This document shows, one piece after another, positions 15,744-60,605 of a DNA stretch of 64,000 nt. Location: positions 1 to 64,000 of the forward strand of contig MPMM01000006.1 in assembly GCA_002238505.1 (NCBI GenBank), read 5' to 3'. This DNA is from SAR202 cluster bacterium bin22 (GTDB lineage: Bacteria; Chloroflexota; Dehalococcoidia; Lucifugimonadales; UBA3495). Made by a program: the position numbers and the translations under genes. The notes beneath the pieces were generated by a model. The model had not been told where the DNA came from, searched no databases, and saw only the letters and a list, made by a program, of their open reading frames with translations. Every line of letters begins with the position of its first letter. Positions within the stretch are counted from its first letter, which is position 1.

Positions 15744-15923
15744 GCAGGTAAACAGGTTTGAAATGATAACTGCTACATCTGTATCGTCATTCGGGCCTTG
15801 AGCCGGAATCCGGGCAGGATACCAAAGGTCAACTGCATGGTACAGGATAGGCTCTGGATTCCGGCTTTCGCTGGAAAGACGGTTAAACCCCAACCCTTCA
15901 TTACAATGCTGTTGAACTACCAG
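15744..15923. repeat. ~180-bp inverted-repeat element, copy A
   Basis: It is about 75-80% identical to 53523-53702. The element starts with AACAGGTTTGAAA and contains TTGAGCCGGAATCC and its partner GGATTCCGGCTTTCGC, which can pair. It ends in GTTAAACCCCARCC and TGCTGTTGAA. It sits upstream of the permease gene. The rest of 15652-16183 shows no gene. Confidence 0.7.
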
Positions 15924-19257: not shown

Positions 19258-19344
19258 GCCGAGGTGGTGGAATTGGTAGACACGCGGTCTTGAGGGGGCC
19301 GTGGGCGTAAGCTCGTGTGGGTTCAAGTCCCGCCCTCGGCACCA
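19258..19344 (+). tRNA. tRNA-Leu (GAG)
   Basis: GCCGAGG pairs with CCTCGGC as acceptor stem, followed by A73 and an encoded CCA. The anticodon arm CGGTC-TTGAGGG-GGCCG gives anticodon GAG. A long variable arm (class II) and the GTTCAAGTC T-loop are present. Confidence 0.95.
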
Positions 19345-19387
19345 TGATCGGCCCGGGACCAGGCACCCAATTACCGGCGCAGTTTGA

Positions 19388-19464
19388 GGCGACGTAGCCA
19401 AGTGGACTAAGGCGGAGGTCTGCAAAACCTCTATTCGGCGGTTCGAATCCGCCCGTCGCCTCCA
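19388..19464 (+). tRNA. tRNA-Cys (GCA)
   Basis: The acceptor stem is GGCGACG/CGTCGCC. The anticodon loop CTGCAAA gives GCA. The discriminator base is U, as expected for tRNA-Cys, and CCA is encoded. Confidence 0.95.
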
Positions 19465-19565
19465 TTTTTATTTCCGCCGGAAATTGCACAGCCGCTTTGC
19501 CGACTGTCGGTTGCAGTTCTAACCCTCAAGCGTCGGGCGTACCGGCGCCGGGCCATCGCTGATTA

Positions 19566-19650
19566 GCCGGGGTGGCGGAATGGTAGACGCGGCGGACTTA
19601 AAATCCGCTATCTTTACGATGTGTGGGTTCGAATCCCTCCTCCGGCACCA
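19566..19650 (+). tRNA. tRNA-Leu (UAA)
   Basis: A class II tRNA with acceptor GCCGGGG/CTCCGGC. The anticodon loop CTTAAAA on a GCGGA/TCCGC stem gives UAA. The T-loop is GTTCGAATC and CCA is encoded. Confidence 0.95.
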
Positions 19651-31386: not shown

Positions 31387-31612
31387 GCCAACCACCTCCA
31401 CTGGTTCCGTCGCGCTTTTGAATAGGCTGCGCCGATTATGGGTGATGGTAACTATGGGCAGGTGGGATTGTCAACTTAATTAAGGGCAATCGCGTTTTAG
31501 TCTGTTCGTAAATTGCCCAGCGCCCTTCAGCGAGAAATGAATATCACCTTGAGCTTGCCGAAGGGCTAAGGACGACATTTCTCCATAACGCGATTGCCCT
31601 GATTGCCTCCCC
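31387..31612. other. Spacer upstream of the ferritin-like oxidase
   Basis: No gene. Contains a CTTGAGCTTGCCGAAGGGCT repeat echo (31550-31570) and the pair GCAATCGCGTTTT / AACGCGATTGC (about 31487, 31588), an inverted repeat spanning about 110 bp. Confidence 0.4.
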
Positions 31613-31746
31613 CAGGGTCTTTCGATTGCCGGTTGCAACTCCTCGAGTCTGTTCGTGGTGAGCTTGGAGAACCATTCCAGGCGGCCCTTCGACAGGCTCA
31701 GGGCGAACGGTGGAAGAGACTCTACCAAGATAATCGAAATACCCGG
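31613..31746. mobile_element. 134-bp MITE-like element, copy 1 (degenerate)
   Basis: The left end CAGGGTCTTTCGATT is intact; the right end AATCGAAATACCCGG has two changes from the consensus AATCGAAAGACCCTG. The interior carries GTTCGTGGTGAGCTTGGAGA and GGCCCTTCGACAGGCTCAGG. No target duplication is evident. Confidence 0.75.
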
Positions 31747-31779
31747 TCACCTGGCCCTTGTCCGACTGGGCAAGGGGTG

Positions 31780-32085
31780 AGTTTGGGTTTCTTTGTTGGC
31801 AGGGTCAAGGGCGGGTTTGAAACCCGCCCCTACGTGGAAAAGGGGTGAATTTTGTTTTTTCCTGTTATTTCCTTTCATTTCCTGTTGTTTTGTAGCTGGG
31901 GATGGGGACAGATGACAGGCTGATGAAAGGGTGGTCCGCCATTGCCCAGATTGCCAGGCGGCGGGGGTGAAAGGGTGGCCCTCACCCCCTGCCCCTCTCC
32001 CATAGGGCGAGGGGGGATGCCTAGTATTGTCTCTTAATGGTAGGGGTGGGTTATCCAGGGTGGGAAGGGGGTGGTGTCAAGGGGA
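31780..32085. repeat. Second copy of the long composite spacer repeat
   Basis: It repeats, in order, GGGCGGGTTTGAAACCCGCC, TTATTTCCTTTCATTTCCTG, GTGGTCCGCC, the GCCCCTCTCCCATAGGGCGA palindrome and GGTAGGGGTGGGTTATCCAG from 11261-11815. It is shorter because one inner segment is absent. Confidence 0.65.
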
Positions 32086-32098
32086 GGTGGTTATCCAC

Positions 32099-32239
32099 CA
32101 GGGTCTTTCGATTGTCGGTGGCAACTCCTCGAGTCCGTTCGTGGTGAGCTTGGAGAACCATTCCGGGCGGCCCTTCGACAGGCTCGGGGCGAACGGTGGA
32201 AGAGACTCTACCAAAATACACAATAATCGGAAGACCGTG
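32099..32239. mobile_element. MITE-like element, copy 2
   Basis: A 141-bp copy with left end CAGGGTCTTTCGATT and right end AATCGGAAGACCGTG. A small insertion (ACACA) lies near the right end. Confidence 0.8.
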
Positions 32240-32247
32240 TTGCCTCC

Positions 32248-32438
32248 CAGGGTCTTTCGATTTTCCCTCTCCCCTGGCGGGAGAGGGTTCGGGAGAGGGT
32301 TAGGGTGAGGGGGGCGTTCTTCGGCCAGATGACTCGTTGCCTTGCACTTTCACCCCCATTCCTTCGGCAGGCTCAGGACAGGCTCTAACCTTCCCCCTTC
32401 GAGGGGGAAGGGACATCTTGGAAAATCGAAAGACCGTG
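32248..32438. mobile_element. Element with the same ends but a different interior
   Basis: The left end CAGGGTCTTTCGATT (32248-32262) and right end AATCGAAAGACCGTG (32424-32438) match the MITE. The inside is unrelated CCCTCTCCCCTGGCGGGAGA-type palindromic repeat plus CTTCCCCCTTCGAGGGGGAA. The flanks TTGCCTCC and TTGCCTCT are near-identical, though TTGCCTCCC also precedes copy 1. Confidence 0.55.
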
Positions 32439-32561
32439 TTGCCTCTCCTCCCCCGGTTCCCCCCAAAGCCCCGCTCATATATAATCACCCGCGAATAATC
32501 TGGCCCGGCCGGGTAGCCGGGCGTAATTGATGCCATTTGTTATGCAACGCAAGGAGGAGTT

Positions 32562-32891
32562 ATGCCCGACGATTTCGTTAAGGTTGCCGCGGTCAGCGAG
32601 GTTTCCCCGGGGGATATGAAGGTAGTGGACGTGGGCGACGACCAGATTCTCCTGGTCAACGTGGATGGCGAGGTCCACGCCTGCGACGACATCTGCAGCC
32701 ACGCCTACGCTTCCCTGTCCGAGGGCGACCTGGACGGCGCGGAAGTCCAGTGCCCGCTCCACGGCGCCATCTTCAACGTCAGGACCGGTAAGGTACTTAC
32801 CCCGCCGGCGGTGGACGCCCTGCGCATCTTCGAGGTGCGGGTGGAAGGCGACGATATACTCGTCGGCCCGGCCCGGGAGGGCCAGGAGTAA
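32562..32891 (+). CDS. Rieske-type [2Fe-2S] ferredoxin
   Basis: The 109-residue soluble Rieske protein binds a 2Fe-2S cluster through Cys45-x-His47 (CSHAYA) and Cys64-x2-His67 (CPLHG). These proteins carry electrons to oxygenases such as ring-hydroxylating and diiron enzymes. AAGGAGGAG lies 5 nt before the ATG. It is transcribed away from the ferritin-like genes 1.2 kb upstream; whether it serves them is open. No reductase gene is adjacent. Confidence 0.93.
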   Translation: MPDDFVKVAAVSEVSPGDMKVVDVGDDQILLVNVDGEVHACDDICSHAYASLSEGDLDGAEVQCPLHGAIFNVRTGKVLTPPAVDALRIFEVRVEGDDILVGPAREGQE

Positions 32892-34053: not shown

Positions 34054-34062
34054 CCACACAGC

Positions 34063-34196
34063 CAGGGTCTTTCGATTGTCGGTGGCAACTCCTCAAGTCC
34101 GTTCGTGGTGAGCTTGGAGACCCATTCCGGGCGGCCCTTCGACGGGCTCAGGGCGAACGGTGAAAGAGACTCTACCAAAAGAATCGAAAGACCCTG
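34063..34196. mobile_element. MITE-like element, copy 3, with 9-bp target duplication
   Basis: Perfect 15-bp terminal inverted repeats (CAGGGTCTTTCGATT / AATCGAAAGACCCTG) enclose a 104-bp interior. The flanks at 34054-34062 and 34197-34205 are both CCACACAGC. It carries no gene, so it must depend on a transposase in trans. Confidence 0.9.
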
Positions 34197-34280
34197 CCAC
34201 ACAGCGTTCCTGGTGGACATACCCGCGCATTGGTGGCTAAACTGCCTTATTCCATCAGCCAGTTGAGGAGGCAAGACAGA

Positions 34281-35186
34281 ATGGCTTGGCAGTACCACTT
34301 CGAACTGCTCACCCGACCCTACGGCGGCGTCAGCGAGGGCCCCGTATGGGATGGTGAGGCAATCCTGTTCACCCACATTCCCTCCAGCCGGATTATGCGT
34401 TACGACCCCGACTCCGGCGCCATTACCGAGGCCCGGACGGGCACCAACCATACCAACGGTCTTGCCTTCAATGCCCGGGGCAATCTCTTCGGCTGCTGCT
34501 CCGGCGGCCGCGCCATTGTCCGTTTTGACGACAACGCCATCGTGACCGTGTCCGACCGCGTGGACGGGCAGAAGCTTAACACTCCCAACGACCTGGCCAT
34601 AGACCGCAGCGGGCGCATCTGGTTCACCAACCCCTGGAATGCAGGCAACATAGACCCCAGCGAGGTTGAGGAACTGGACAACCGCTCGGTGCTGCGGGCC
34701 GACCCCCAACCCGACGGCAGCTACACCACCACCCGGGTTACTTTCGACACCACCATGCCCAACGGCATCCTGGTTTCCCCGGACCAGCGCACCCTTTACG
34801 TGGTGGAAAGCAACAGCGAGCGTATCGACATCAACCGGGAACTGCGGGCCTATCCGATTAACGACGACGGCAGCCTGGGATCCTACCGTTCGCTGCACAG
34901 CTTTGGCCGGGATGCCAACGCTGTCCACCGGGGTATTGACGGCATGTGCTTCGACGCCGACGGCAACATCGTGGCCACGGCCGGCTGGGAACTGGGGGGC
35001 CCGGGGCCCATGATCTACATCTTCTCGCCCACCGGGAGGGTACTGGAAACCCATCCCATCGCCTGCAACCGTCCCACCAACGTCTGTTTCGGCGGCCCCG
35101 GCCTGTCCACCCTGTACGTTACCTCCACCGACGGTCACTTTTACCGCGCCGAAACCGACCGGGTAGGCTGGGCTATCTATCCATAG
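34281..35186 (+). CDS. SMP-30/gluconolactonase-like beta-propeller hydrolase
   Basis: The 301-residue protein has the six-bladed propeller motifs of the SMP-30/gluconolaconase/LRE family. Metal ligands expected are Glu19 (SEGPVWD), Asn in TPNDLAID, Asn in MPNGILVSPD and Asp in RGIDGMCFD. The family hydrolyses lactones of sugars or other compounds. ATG 34281 is chosen because GAGGAGG lies upstream; the frame extends further without similarity. No signal peptide. The next gene at 35287 follows in the same direction. Confidence 0.88.
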   Translation: MAWQYHFELLTRPYGGVSEGPVWDGEAILFTHIPSSRIMRYDPDSGAITEARTGTNHTNGLAFNARGNLFGCCSGGRAIVRFDDNAIVTVSDRVDGQKLNTPNDLAIDRSGRIWFTNPWNAGNIDPSEVEELDNRSVLRADPQPDGSYTTTRVTFDTTMPNGILVSPDQRTLYVVESNSERIDINRELRAYPINDDGSLGSYRSLHSFGRDANAVHRGIDGMCFDADGNIVATAGWELGGPGPMIYIFSPTGRVLETHPIACNRPTNVCFGGPGLSTLYVTSTDGHFYRAETDRVGWAIYP

Positions 35187-44615: not shown

Positions 44616-46973
44616 ATGCCTGAAGCTACAGTAGTAGAACGAGTTATCGGCAACGAGAAACTGGTAATCGAGTCGGGCAAGCTGGCCTTTCAGGCCCACG
44701 GTTCCGCGGTTCTCACCTACGGAGATACGGTGGTGCTGGCCACTGCGGTGATGGCCGACAAGCCCCGAGCCGACATAGATTTTCTGCCCCTGACGGTGGA
44801 GTTCGAAGAGCGGTTATATTCCGCGGGCAAGATTCCGGGCAGCTTCTTCCGCAGGGAGGGACGCCCCGGCCAGGAAGCAATCCTTTCCGCCCGTCTCACC
44901 GACCGCTCCATCCGCCCCCTCTTCCCCAAGGGTCTGCACAACGAAATCCAGGTAATCCTCACCGTCCTTTCCGCCGACCAGAAGAACCCCCCGGAAATAC
45001 TGGGCATGATCGGCGCATCGACAGCCCTGTCCATTTCCCACCTGCCCTTCTCCGGTCCCATCGGCGCCTGCCGCGTTTCCTACAACGACGGCGGGTTCAT
45101 TGTGAACCCCACCTACGCCGAGATTGCCGAGGGCCAGTTGAACATGGTGGTGGCCAGCACCCGCGACGCCATAATGATGGTGGAGGCCGGGTCCTACGAG
45201 GTATCGGAGGAGGTCATCCTGGAGGGAATTCAGAAGGCCTTTAGCGCCAACCTGATTACCATTGACCTGATTGACGAACTGGTAGGCAAGGTAGGCCAGC
45301 CCAAGCTCGAAGTTTCGGAGGACACCGAGGCGGCAGAGAGCCTGGACTCCCAGATCAAGGCCATCGTCAACGGCCGAGTAACCGAAATCCTGGAGCAGAA
45401 CTCCTTCAAGGCGGAACGGGACGAGGGCCTGGACCGGATTGAGGAAGAGGTCGCCGAGCAACTAACCGAGGAATTCGGCAAGAACAAGGTTGCCGAAGGG
45501 TTCAAGAACGTGGTCAAGGGCGAGGTCCGCCGCCGCATCCTGGACCTGGGCGTAAGGCCCGACGGCCGCAGCCTGTCGGAAATCCGGCCCATTTCCTGCG
45601 AGGTAGGCGTACTGCCCCGTACCCACGGTTCGGGTCTTTTCACCCGGGGGCAGACCCAGGTGCTGTCCGCAGCCACCCTGGGGCCCGTGAGCATGAAACA
45701 GACCCTGGACACCCTGTCTCCTGACGATACCAAGCAGTTCATGCACCACTACAACTTCCCGCCCTATTCGGTGGGCGAGGCCCGACGGGTAGGTTCACCG
45801 GGTCGGCGGGAGATCGGCCACGGCGCGCTGGCAGAGCGGGCAATCCTGTCCTCACTGCCCTCCGATATCGAGTTCCCCTACACCATTCGGGTGGTTTCCG
45901 AGGTGCTCAGCTCAAACGGCAGCACTTCCATGGGCAGCGTGTGCGGCACCAGCATGGCCCTGATGGACGCCGGTGTGCCCTTGAAGGGCCCGGTGGCCGG
46001 CATCGCCATGGGCCTGGTGACCGACAACGATGGCCGCTATGCCGTGTTGAGCGACATTCAGGGCATTGAGGACTTCCTGGGCGACATGGACTTCAAGGTG
46101 GCCGGCACGGCCTCCGGCATCAACGCCCTGCAAATGGACATCAAGCTGAAGGGGCTGGACGAGGACATCCTCCGGCAGGCCCTGGAACAGGCCCGGCTGG
46201 GCCGGCTGCACATCCTGGACAAGATGTCCGAGGCCATCACCGAGGCCCGTACCGAGATGAGCCCCTACGCCCCCAAGACCATCCGGGTACAGATTCCGGT
46301 GGAGAAGATTGGCGCGGTCATCGGCCCAGGCGGCCGGGTAATTCGCGGCATCATCGAGGAATCGGGCGCTTCAATTGACGTGGCCGACGACGGCGGCGTG
46401 ACCATCAGTTCTTCGGACCAGACGTCCCTCGAACTGGCGCGCAGCCGGATTGAAGGTCTGACCCGCGAACTGGTGGTGGGCGACATACTCACCGGCAAGG
46501 TCAACCGCCTGACCAGCTTCGGCGCCTTCGTGGAACTGATCCCCGGCAAGGACGGCCTGGTACGCAACGAGGACCTGGGCGACATGGAAGAGGAACTCAA
46601 GGTTGGCCAGGAACTCACGGTAATGGTCCAGGAGATTGACTCCATGGGACGGGTCAACGTTTCCCGCCGCGCCCTCTTTGGCGACGACGGCGGAGAGCGG
46701 CCACCGCGTCCTTCCCGCCCGCCCCAGGACCGGGGCGGCGACCGACCCCGTGGCGGCGGCTTCGGCAACCGCGGCGGTGGCGGTGGTGGACCCCGTGGCG
46801 GTGGCGGCGGTGGCCCCAGGGGAGGCCAGGGCGGTGGCGGCAACCGCGGCGGTGGCGGCGGTGGCCCCAGGGGAGGCCAGGGCGGTGGCGGCAACCGTGG
46901 CGGCAGTGGCGGCGGCGGTGGCAGCATTTCCGACCGGCGCTTCCTGGGCAACAGCGGCGGCAGGCCTCGGTAA
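44616..46973 (+). CDS. pnp: Polyribonucleotide nucleotidyltransferase with RGG-like tail
   Basis: The 785-residue PNPase degrades RNA 3'-5' phosphorolytically. Two RNase PH domains, with [20 protein letters not shown] and [18 protein letters not shown] around the second active site, are followed by a KH domain ([15 protein letters not shown]) and an S1 domain ([19 protein letters not shown]). The last about 95 residues (from about 690) are an unusual Gly/Arg/Pro-rich disordered tail with RGG and GGGGPRGG repeats, partly a 51-bp DNA tandem repeat. Such tails bind RNA or form condensates in other proteins. The operon with rpsO is ended by the terminator at 47013-47077. Confidence 0.96.
46810..46911. 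repeat. 51-bp tandem repeat inside pnp
   Basis: Two near-identical in-frame units of 51 bp starting GTGGCCCCAGGGGAGGCCAG encode the Gly/Arg tail; unit edges are at 46810 and 46861. Confidence 0.85.
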
Positions 46974-47684: not shown

Positions 47685-48764
47685 ATGTGGCAGGCCCCTG
47701 AGGATGTGCTGGAGGCGGTTGCCATTGGCGCCGGTATATTGGGTACCGGAGGCGGCGGCAACCCATACATCGGGCAGTTGCGGGCGCGGCAGGCTTTGCG
47801 CCGGTGGGGTCCGGTAACCGTCCTGGCGCCGGAAGAGGTCCCTGAAGACGCCCGGGTAATCTGCGTGGGCGGCATCGGGGCGCCGACGGTGGGTATTGAG
47901 AAGGTGCGAGACCTCCAGTCGTACCATGCCCTGCGCGCCATCGAGGAGTTCACGGGAGAGCAGGCCACCGCCCTCATCTCCAACGAAATTGGCGGCAGCA
48001 ACTCGGTGGAAGTGATGATCGCCGCCGCCAAGGCCGGCCTTCCCATCGTGGATGCCGATGGCATGGGCCGCGCTTTCCCCGAGTTCCAGATGAAAACCTT
48101 CTTCGTGTACGGCGTGCCCTGCTGCCCCATGGCCATTGCCGACGAGAAGGGGAACTCCATCATCATCCGGGAGACCATCACCCCGGCCTGGGCCGAAAGG
48201 CTGGCCCGGGCGGCCACCATACAGATGGGCTGCGTGGCCTGCTACGCCGTGGCGCCCATGTCCGCCGAGCAGGTGAGAAACACCGCCGTTCCCAACACCC
48301 TTTCCCTGGCCCGCGACCTGGGCAACGCCGTCCAGCAGGCCCATGACACCGGCAGAGACCCGATGGAAGCCATCCTGAACACCTGCCCGGGAAGGATTCT
48401 ATTCTCCGGAAAGGTAGCGGACCTGGACCGGCGCACCACGGGCGGCTTCGCCCGGGGCACGCTGGCAATTGAAGGGCTGGACGATTTCACCAGCCACAGG
48501 ATGGTAATAGACTTCCAGAATGAGAACCTCATTGCCCGGGTGGACAGGGAGATTGTTTGTACTGTCCCCGACCTAATCTGTGCCGTGACCACCGACGGGG
48601 GCGAACCAGTAACCACGGAACTGATGCGTTACGGCCTGAGGGTGACCATCCTGGGCTTCCCGGCTCCTGCGCTGTGGACGACACCCCAGGGCCTGCACGA
48701 GTCCGGGCCCCAGCACTTCGGCTACGACACCGAATACATACCCCTGCAGGTCGCGGCAGACTGA
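47685..48764 (+). CDS. DUF917 family protein
   Basis: The 359-residue protein is a DUF917 member: the Gly-rich loop ILGTGGGGNPYIGQL, NEIGGSNSVEVM and DGMGRAFPEFQMKTF are its motifs. DUF917 genes normally occur beside hydantoinase/oxoprolinase genes, as here: the next gene begins 1 bp after its stop, implying a complex or joint pathway in ring-amide (hydantoin, oxoproline) or ketone/acyl-carboxylation chemistry. AGAGAGA precedes the ATG. Precise function unknown. Confidence 0.88.
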   Translation: MWQAPEDVLEAVAIGAGILGTGGGGNPYIGQLRARQALRRWGPVTVLAPEEVPEDARVICVGGIGAPTVGIEKVRDLQSYHALRAIEEFTGEQATALISNEIGGSNSVEVMIAAAKAGLPIVDADGMGRAFPEFQMKTFFVYGVPCCPMAIADEKGNSIIIRETITPAWAERLARAATIQMGCVACYAVAPMSAEQVRNTAVPNTLSLARDLGNAVQQAHDTGRDPMEAILNTCPGRILFSGKVADLDRRTTGGFARGTLAIEGLDDFTSHRMVIDFQNENLIARVDREIVCTVPDLICAVTTDGGEPVTTELMRYGLRVTILGFPAPALWTTPQGLHESGPQHFGYDTEYIPLQVAAD

Positions 48765-53523: not shown

Positions 53524-53702
53524 CAGGCCAACAGGTTTGAAAGGAATACAGCTAAAACTGTGTCGTCATTCCGGCCTTGAGCCGGAATCCAGAAAGGTTG
53601 CTGATGGTCAACTGCATGGTACAAGAGGGGCTCTGGATTCCGGCTTTCGCCGGAATGACGGTTAAACCCCAGCCCATAATTGCAGTGCTGTTGAAATACT
53701 AG
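53523..53702. repeat. ~180-bp inverted-repeat element, copy B
   Basis: It begins at the stop codon of the threonine synthase gene. TTCCGGCCTTGAGCCGGAAT and ATTCCGGCTTTCGCCGGAAT are each palindromic and mutually similar. It matches copy A at 15744-15923. Between it and ispH no other feature is seen. Confidence 0.75.
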
Positions 53703-59554: not shown

Positions 59555-59639
59555 AGAAATGGCTGGGGATGGAGGGTTCGAACCTCCGCTTCCTGATCCA
59601 GAGTCAGGCGTCCTACCACTGGACTAATCCCCAGCGAAG
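59555..59639. repeat. 85-bp direct repeat, left copy (contains tRNA-Gln)
   Basis: Identical to 60521-60605. It spans the whole tRNA plus 5-6 bp on each side. Confidence 0.95.
59560..59633 (-). tRNA. tRNA-Gln (CUG), copy 2
   Basis: Acceptor TGGGGAT/ATCCCCA, G73 and an encoded CCA. The anticodon loop CTCTGGA on CCTGA/TCAGG gives CUG. It follows hicB with no promoter of its own recognised. Confidence 0.95.
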
Positions 59640-59689
59640 CGAGGGGTCCTGTCCAGGTCGTTCTTGTTGATGGTGGCCATGGCAGATCG

Positions 59690-59902
59690 CTATGCCAGCA
59701 TCAGGCGCTCACCCTTGGGTTCGGGGATCGGATCGCCGAACTCCCGCGCCGTTTCAAGCCAGAGTTCTACGGCGTCATGGACTTGCCGGAGCGCTGCCTC
59801 GTGGGTGTCTCCGTGGGCCGCACACCCCGGGAGCTCGGGCGCTTCCGCAACAAACGCCCCATCTTCGCTACTCCAGTAGATGATGATTTCGTACTTGTGC
59901 AT
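59690..59902 (-). CDS. hicB: HicB-family antitoxin (second module)
   Basis: The 70-residue protein shows the HicB core YEIIIYWSSEDGAFVAEAPEL with PGCAAHGDTHEAALRQVHDAVELWLE. Its ATG overlaps the hicA stop by 4 nt (ATGA), so the two are translationally coupled. It lies between the two tRNA-Gln genes. A very short C-terminus suggests no DNA-binding domain. Confidence 0.87.
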   Translation of the reverse strand: MHKYEIIIYWSSEDGAFVAEAPELPGCAAHGDTHEAALRQVHDAVELWLETAREFGDPIPEPKGERLMLA

Positions 59903-60156
59903 CAGTCCCCCATTTCCAGATGATATCTCAGGATTACCTGCCGCACCTGCCGTACTTGGTAAGGCTTGGCATGGTTCCCATCACGCTGGATATTTATCAG
60001 TTCACGTACCCCATTCTTCCTGAAAATATGATGGCTCCCTCGTGTCCGTTCAGCAAAGCCCAAGCGCAACAGCAAAGACCGTAGATCATCGAAGTGGATA
60101 TTGGCGTCAGACCGCCCGCTCAGTACCCTCTGTTGTAGTTCATCGTTTCGGCTCAT
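59902..60156 (-). CDS. hicA: HicA-family toxin (second module)
   Basis: The 84-residue protein has a HicA core: IHFDDLRSLLLRLGFAERTR, the catalytic His pair in GSHHIF, then NIQRDGNHAKPYQVRQVRQV. An N-terminal extension of about 18 residues is longer than in classic HicA. It precedes hicB, the usual order, opposite to the module at 39.5 kb. Confidence 0.85.
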   Translation of the reverse strand: MSRNDELQQRVLSGRSDANIHFDDLRSLLLRLGFAERTRGSHHIFRKNGVRELINIQRDGNHAKPYQVRQVRQVILRYHLEMGD

Positions 60157-60256
60157 GGCGAATGCTTCTTTAGACTTGAGAGACCCCCGATGTAGAGCTG
60201 TAGTGCGACCTGCCAGGTAAGGGCGGCAGCCTTAGGGTCGGCTTTGAGTATGGTGA

Positions 60257-60502
60257 TCATGGATTAACCGCACTTGTTGGCGCCCAAGGTACAGACTCGA
60301 CCACCTGTTTAGCTCGGTTCCAATAGGAACCATCATAGCCAAACTGCTTAAGGAGCATTAGTTCTACATAATGCAAACCCAACTCCCGCGCTTGCATATA
60401 AATATCCGGTTGAAGGACGTCATAGCGCATTTCTTGGTGAATCAGATCATCACGAATTTTAACAAGGGTGTAAAGAGCAGCCGAAGGGGCCCACCGCCAC
60501 CT
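60257..60502 (-). pseudogene. 3' gene fragment cut off near tRNA-Gln
   Basis: An open frame with no start codon near its beginning encodes about 81 residues of protein-like sequence: ALYTLVKIRDDLIHQEMRYD, DIYMQARELGLHYVELMLLK and FGYDGSYWNRAKQVVESVPW. A TGA precedes it at 60503-60505. The neighbouring frame reads FQDYYEGGGGPLRLL into the same place, so a frameshift at the GGGGCCCC is also possible. It is more AT-rich than the chromosome. No family recognised; probably the remains of a gene carried with the hicAB segment. Confidence 0.5.
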
Positions 60503-60520
60503 TCATAGTAATCCTGGAAT

Positions 60521-60605
60521 AGAAATGGCTGGGGATGGAGGGTTCGAACCTCCGCTTCCTGATCCAGAGTCAGGCGTCCTACCACTGGACTAATCCCCAG
60601 CGAAG
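60521..60605. repeat. 85-bp direct repeat, right copy (contains tRNA-Gln)
   Basis: Identical to 59555-59639. The two copies bracket 881 bp with hicA, hicB and the gene fragment. Confidence 0.95.
60526..60599 (-). tRNA. tRNA-Gln (CUG), copy 1
   Basis: Same sequence as the other copy. It has a plausible promoter 77 bp upstream (60676-60704), so it is probably the original locus. Confidence 0.95.

Follow-up and report, generated by a model that had tools for sequence, protein, structure and literature searches.

ISAs1-family insertion sequences (ISs; NF033564, with PF13808 and PF01609) and the MITEs derived from them are the closest described relatives of the elements analysed here. The likeness lies in CAGGG ends, target-site duplications (TSDs) of 9–10 bp and an exact match of the 15 bp at each end. 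Beyond the terminal 15–19 bp, however, the interiors of the MITEs described below share nothing obvious with an ISAs1 IS, and consist instead of interchangeable palindromic repeats.

Miniature elements with terminal inverted repeats (TIRs) of a known family, pairs of which mobilise the intervening DNA, have been described as TIMEs and composite transposons (Szuplewska 2014, PMC4133298). The part of that account considered here concerns Tn3-derived elements with 38-bp inverted repeats and duplications of 5–6 bp, and mentions no REP cargo. A bacterial MITE enclosing repetitive DNA is also known from P. gingivalis (PMC4596501), where, in the part of the account considered, the enclosed DNA is a minisatellite rather than a varied REP cargo.

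The REPs of the GTAG and CGTC superfamilies have been described as free units (Di Nocera 2013, PMC3733652), the former tied to RAYTs and the latter to no known transposase. REP dimers within longer palindromes, noted in A. variabilis and H. neapolitanus in the same work, are a possible precedent. Here, by contrast, REPs lie between ISAs1 ends; one kind of cargo is GTAG-tagged and another fits CGTC-1. The parts are known, and we did not find the arrangement, ISAs1 ends around an interchangeable REP cargo, described in the literature. Literature searches on the core sequence, bacterial Pack-MITEs and MITEs of sponge Chloroflexi found nothing relevant.

Copies of the element in the window

The window analysed here is a stretch of 64,000 nucleotides from SAR202 cluster bacterium bin22. 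A first-pass annotation described in it four copies of a 134-bp element with perfect 15-bp TIRs, two of them, copies 3 and 4, with clear 9-bp target duplications. All four copies lie where they were annotated (Table 1). The 9-bp duplication of copy 3, CCACACAGC, is exact. The TIRs are perfect in copies 3 and 4, whereas copies 1 and 2 each have two mismatches in the right TIR; copy 2 departs from the common length; and the duplication of copy 4 is displaced by an extra base at the right. Copies 1 and 2, which had been listed as separate copies, are not independent insertions but the two ends of one composite. The 134-bp element contains no ORF and therefore needs a transposase in trans, as had been proposed.

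Table 1. Positions in the window of the TIR-bounded elements, their parts and their target duplications, and sequences of the cargo types.
Feature	Start	End	Strand	Description
MITE, second TIR type	31482	31601	+	120 bp; ISAs1 TIRs AAGGGCAATCGCGTTTT ... ATAACGCGATTGCCCTG; A-type REP inside
Composite, left target duplication	31603	31611	.	TTGCCTCCC
Composite	31613	32239	+	627 bp, non-autonomous; bounded by copies 1 and 2, with TTGCCTCCC on each side
MITE copy 1	31613	31746	+	Left end of composite; two mismatches in right TIR
MITE copy 2	32099	32239	+	141 bp; right end of composite
Composite, right target duplication	32240	32248	.	TTGCCTCCC; final C shared with the start of the next TIR
MITE, B-type	32248	32438	+	191 bp; TIRs as in the 134-bp family; B-type cargo with inserted 24-bp REP
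Copy 3, left TSD	34054	34062	.	CCACACAGC
MITE copy 3	34063	34196	+	134 bp; perfect 15-bp TIRs; REP-type (A) cargo
Copy 3, cargo core	34098	34160	+	Two inverted REP-like palindromes, CCGTTCGTGGTGAGC ... CTTCGACGGGCTCAGGGCGAACGG
Copy 3, right TSD	34197	34205	.	CCACACAGC
Copy 4, left TSD	47340	47348	.	GCAGGTATC
MITE copy 4	47349	47482	+	134 bp; perfect TIRs
Copy 4, right TSD	47484	47492	.	GCAGGTATC, preceded by one extra base
Cargo A				CCGTTCGCCCTGAGC...GCGAACGG pair
Cargo A'				GTCCACTCGTCCTTCGACAAGCTCAGGATGAGTGGAC
Cargo B				CCCTCACCCTAACCCTCTCCC; in G026 fused to a AATCCTGAAAATCCTG repeat
Cargo C				GTCATTGCGAGG...CAATGACA
Cargo D				GTAG-tagged; GTAGGGGCGCACC...GTCTGCCCCTAC in L170

Copy 3 directly precedes an SMP-30/gluconolactonase-like gene (34230-35186), and its core (about positions 36–98 of the element) is the part that matches stand-alone repeats of relatives. 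Copy 4 lies between the genes for polynucleotide phosphorylase (44616-46973) and an S-Me-THD-like protein (47685-48764), and a small Rieske gene (32562-32891) lies downstream of the composite. Scanned against Rfam, the window returned tRNAs and no other matches; three tRNA genes (Leu, Cys, Leu) are clustered at 19258-19650, and a pair of tRNA-Gln(CTG) genes spaced by roughly 1 kb is found at 59560-60599.

The region 31482-32438 consists of three consecutive ISAs1-type elements, namely the MITE with the second type of TIR, whose flanks show no clear TSD, the composite and the B-type MITE. One target sequence has been used twice, by the composite and by the 191-bp MITE, and a near-copy of it, TTGCCTCTCC, starts at 32439, immediately after the latter. 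A similar arrangement occurs at C53:499258-499534, where two tandem MITEs have a common TSD. In all there are at least seven composite units of 556–863 bp, starting with the MITE and ending with AATCGAAAGACCGTG or a near-match, and four of them have a perfect 10-bp TSD. They take up ordinary intergenic DNA, including several kinds of repeat. When two MITEs lie close together, the intervening stretch can move with them as a single composite unit.

Genome-wide distribution and target duplications

The host genome (4.39 Mb in 58 contigs, about 97% complete) gave 44 blast matches to the element, and 92 TIR sites at up to one mismatch, as against none for the reversed pattern; genome-wide counts such as these rest on searches together with sampled stretches. 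The sampled loci contain 46 distinct TIR-bounded elements, 30 of which are 134 bp long. The flanks match at nine or more positions in 19 of the 46 and at eight or more in 30, compared with 0.5% and 0.9%, respectively, when flanks were paired across different elements. The TSD is usually 10 bp and at times 9 bp long, and several of the elements that lack one are inner ends of composites.

Related empty sites were found for two insertions, C40:216954-217131 and C55:46006-46139. Both sit within other dispersed repeats, unbroken copies of which align over the junction with a single copy of the target. Two stretches of the window, 15780-15902 and 53564-53681, are copies of a dispersed repeat with a CGTC-like palindrome, and are empty-site relatives of C55:46006. 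Movement by transposition with target duplication, proposed originally from copies in the window, is thus borne out by flanks that match well above the null and by the empty sites. The 134-bp element is short, bounded by TIRs and free of a transposase ORF, and it is present in many copies with TSDs and empty sites: it is a true MITE family. The DDE-type TIRs and the TSDs rule out that the whole element is a REP or REPIN mobilised by a RAYT; the cargo alone is REP-like.

Among 50 genomes from the taxonomic family, the TIR at up to one mismatch was found in 30, with sites most numerous in the host, followed by G026 (38) and G001 (29). Relatives with exact TIR pairs are the Chloroflexi/Dehalococcoidia MAGs VXOI, VXOH, Baikal and CATOSI, which would place the host in Dehalococcoidia (Chloroflexota); shared identical sequence equates G026 with VXOI (SB0662_bin_29) and G001 with VXOH (SB0662_bin_28).

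The transposase family

CAGGG ends combined with duplications of 9–10 bp are features that we take to point to ISAs1. The first-pass annotation recommended looking for an IS with the same ends, and there is one at G026:C226:14723-15947, 1225 bp long, with exact CAGGGTCTTTCGATT (15 bp) at both ends. Its transposase is broken by a frameshift, with both halves scoring above the NF033564 (ISAs1) cut-off, and there is no TSD at its flanks. Its closest relatives end in, for example, CAGGGTCTTTTCATT or CAGGGCCTTTTCATT, and three of them have 10-bp TSDs, some shifted by one base. Across the taxonomic family, related ISAs1 elements have CAGGG ends and TSDs mostly of 10 bp, in agreement with the 9–10 bp of the MITEs, and a PF13808 match occurs in 22 of the 50 genomes. 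MITEs in four genomes have TIRs of another ISAs1 type, CAGGGCAATCGC (the second TIR type), and ISs with ends of this type are present in G062 and G034. Judged by the identity of the ends, the transposase kind that fits the MITE is a known one, the ISAs1 family, and an ISAs1 transposase acting in trans would then mobilise the element and carry out the catalysis.

The host assembly lacks an ISAs1 transposase: searches with PF13808 and, by tblastn, with the G026 partner gave no match. A relic that depends on a transposase in trans can outlast it, so this absence concerns present activity and not origin; in the host, the MITE family is probably dormant, or served by an IS that has been lost or was not assembled. 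Two other candidates were rejected. The host has 17 DDE_Tnp_1 (PF01609) transposases, none of which has ends matching the MITE, and a TIR pair 2.27 kb apart in G002, considered as an autonomous IS, encloses unrelated genes.

Cargo of the elements

Unrelated interiors, here called A, A', B, C and D, occur within the same TIRs, in many cases with a 10-bp TSD at the flanks, and nearly all of them contain dispersed palindromes. By eye, from their sequences and motifs, we distinguish a small number of independent cargo classes, about 6–8; the copies in any one class are related by descent. In G060, five MITEs with the second TIR type and perfect 10-bp TSDs carry pairs of CGTC REPs. This cargo has the CGTC-1 layout, CGTC ATTCCCGC GAAA GCGGGAAT CCA, in which a tag is followed by an 8-bp stem starting AT, a loop of four bases and a tail. 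A few TIR-bounded elements have no obvious palindrome (L263, L266 and L127).

It could be argued that these are ordinary ISAs1 MITEs, with palindromes inside them because intergenic DNA is full of such repeats. Noncoding DNA does hold them, and the composites capture ordinary intergenic DNA with several repeat kinds. Nevertheless, with the TIR elements masked, nearly all cargos in four genome samples have at least five further occurrences in the sampled genome, the exceptions being the cargo of the 191-bp element, with three repeats, and two cargos of G060, with two and none. Among random noncoding 104-mers (noncoding as defined by a simple ORF rule), the fraction repeated at least five times is only 1.5% in the host's own genome and 9.8%, 10.5% and 11.5% in the other samples. 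The insertion sites are not enriched in repeats, two of 36 being repeated three or more times, and an insertion preference for repeats, considered as the source of the cargo, was not seen. We therefore regard capture by chance as unlikely, and prefer the reading in which the MITEs act as carriers of the repeats.

Loading of the REPs

The B-type MITEs occur in loaded and unloaded forms. A 24-bp REP following GGTTAG is absent from those at C39, C12 and C53, and present at C35, at C55 and in the window. The loaded copy at C55:20685-20862 has a perfect 10-bp TSD, GCCCAACGAC, which implies that it transposed in the loaded state. Longer A copies, of 158 and 178 bp, hold additional REP units, and the 178-bp copy at C40:216954 is one of those with an empty site. 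More generally, some B-type repeats, 7 of 19 in the host's own loci and 6 of 39 in G026, have taken varied hairpins, always at the same point, immediately behind GGTTAG (the sites include window 32248-32438, L088 and L091, and the G026 samples L290-L309). In sequence, these fixed-point inserts look like the result of site-specific insertion.

A refinement of the carrier reading would have two systems nested, a RAYT (an HUH transposase) loading the REPs and the ISAs1 transposase spreading the loaded MITEs. RAYT-like HUH ORFs were found at L258:1456-2025, L259:1414-2106 and L260:1441-1998. Those of G003 and G033 have GTAG-type palindromes, the kind found in D cargo, in and around them, and another such palindrome adjoins the 3' end of the host's ORF; this would explain the D-type units, and the inserts after GGTTAG also fit. 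The host's ORF lies around C12:134394-134675. Against this reading, matches to RAYT are rare, with 4 of the 59 relatives passing the threshold applied, and that of the host falls below the NCBIfam cut-off. Moreover, none of the A, B and CGTC-type cargos was found beside the RAYT genes of G003, G033 or the host, and no mover was found for them. Such nesting is possible, and we rate it as doubtful.

Cargo or ancestor

The first-pass annotation also suggested that many of the CTTCGACAGGCTCAGG copies in the spacers descend from the MITE. This is not supported, as the stand-alone copies match the core alone and have no TIR remnants: over 464 kb of the genome, no A core standing by itself has a TIR remnant nearby, even at up to four mismatches. 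In addition, relatives with zero or one TIR site (G017, G018, G027, G010 and G023) have many copies of the core, and loss of TIRs therefore does not explain the stand-alone copies. Although MITE and spacer repeats have the core motif in common, derivation of the latter by TIR loss is highly improbable given these observations and the similar core within a different TIR type at 31482-31601. The comparison indicates that the core is cargo, and not the ancestor of the spacer repeats.

Discussion

On the basis of the varied interiors, the two TIR types and the transposition of a loaded copy, we regard the ISAs1-type MITEs as interchangeable REP carriers. The likely overall explanation is that they are MITEs moved in trans by an ISAs1-family transposase, serving as modular carriers of dispersed palindromic repeats. 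In this mechanism, the DDE transposase would recognise the 15-bp ends and duplicate 9–10 bp of target. The ends alone seem to be required for movement, and the interior holds palindromes of several unrelated kinds. Palindrome units can be gained within an existing MITE, as the loaded and unloaded copies show, with fixed-point insertion as a conceivable route of entry. A loaded MITE can then transpose, as is seen for the one copy with a perfect TSD, and in this way spread the palindromes. The hairpin may possibly bring some benefit to the MITE.

A wider proposal is that ISAs1-type MITEs are a general vehicle for multiplying and moving bacterial palindromic repeats, CGTC REPs included, in which REPs would load at favoured positions before the MITE, with its load, transposes. 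We put this forward as speculation, and rather improbable as it stands.

The two ISAs1 TIR types bear different kinds of REP, with clear target duplications. Mini-transposons with ISAs1 ends carry exchangeable intergenic palindromes, and may therefore be one way in which such repeats spread. This offers a concrete and testable route for the spread of REPs, in which a pair of DDE-type ends would move loaded palindromes, and neighbouring DNA in the form of composites.
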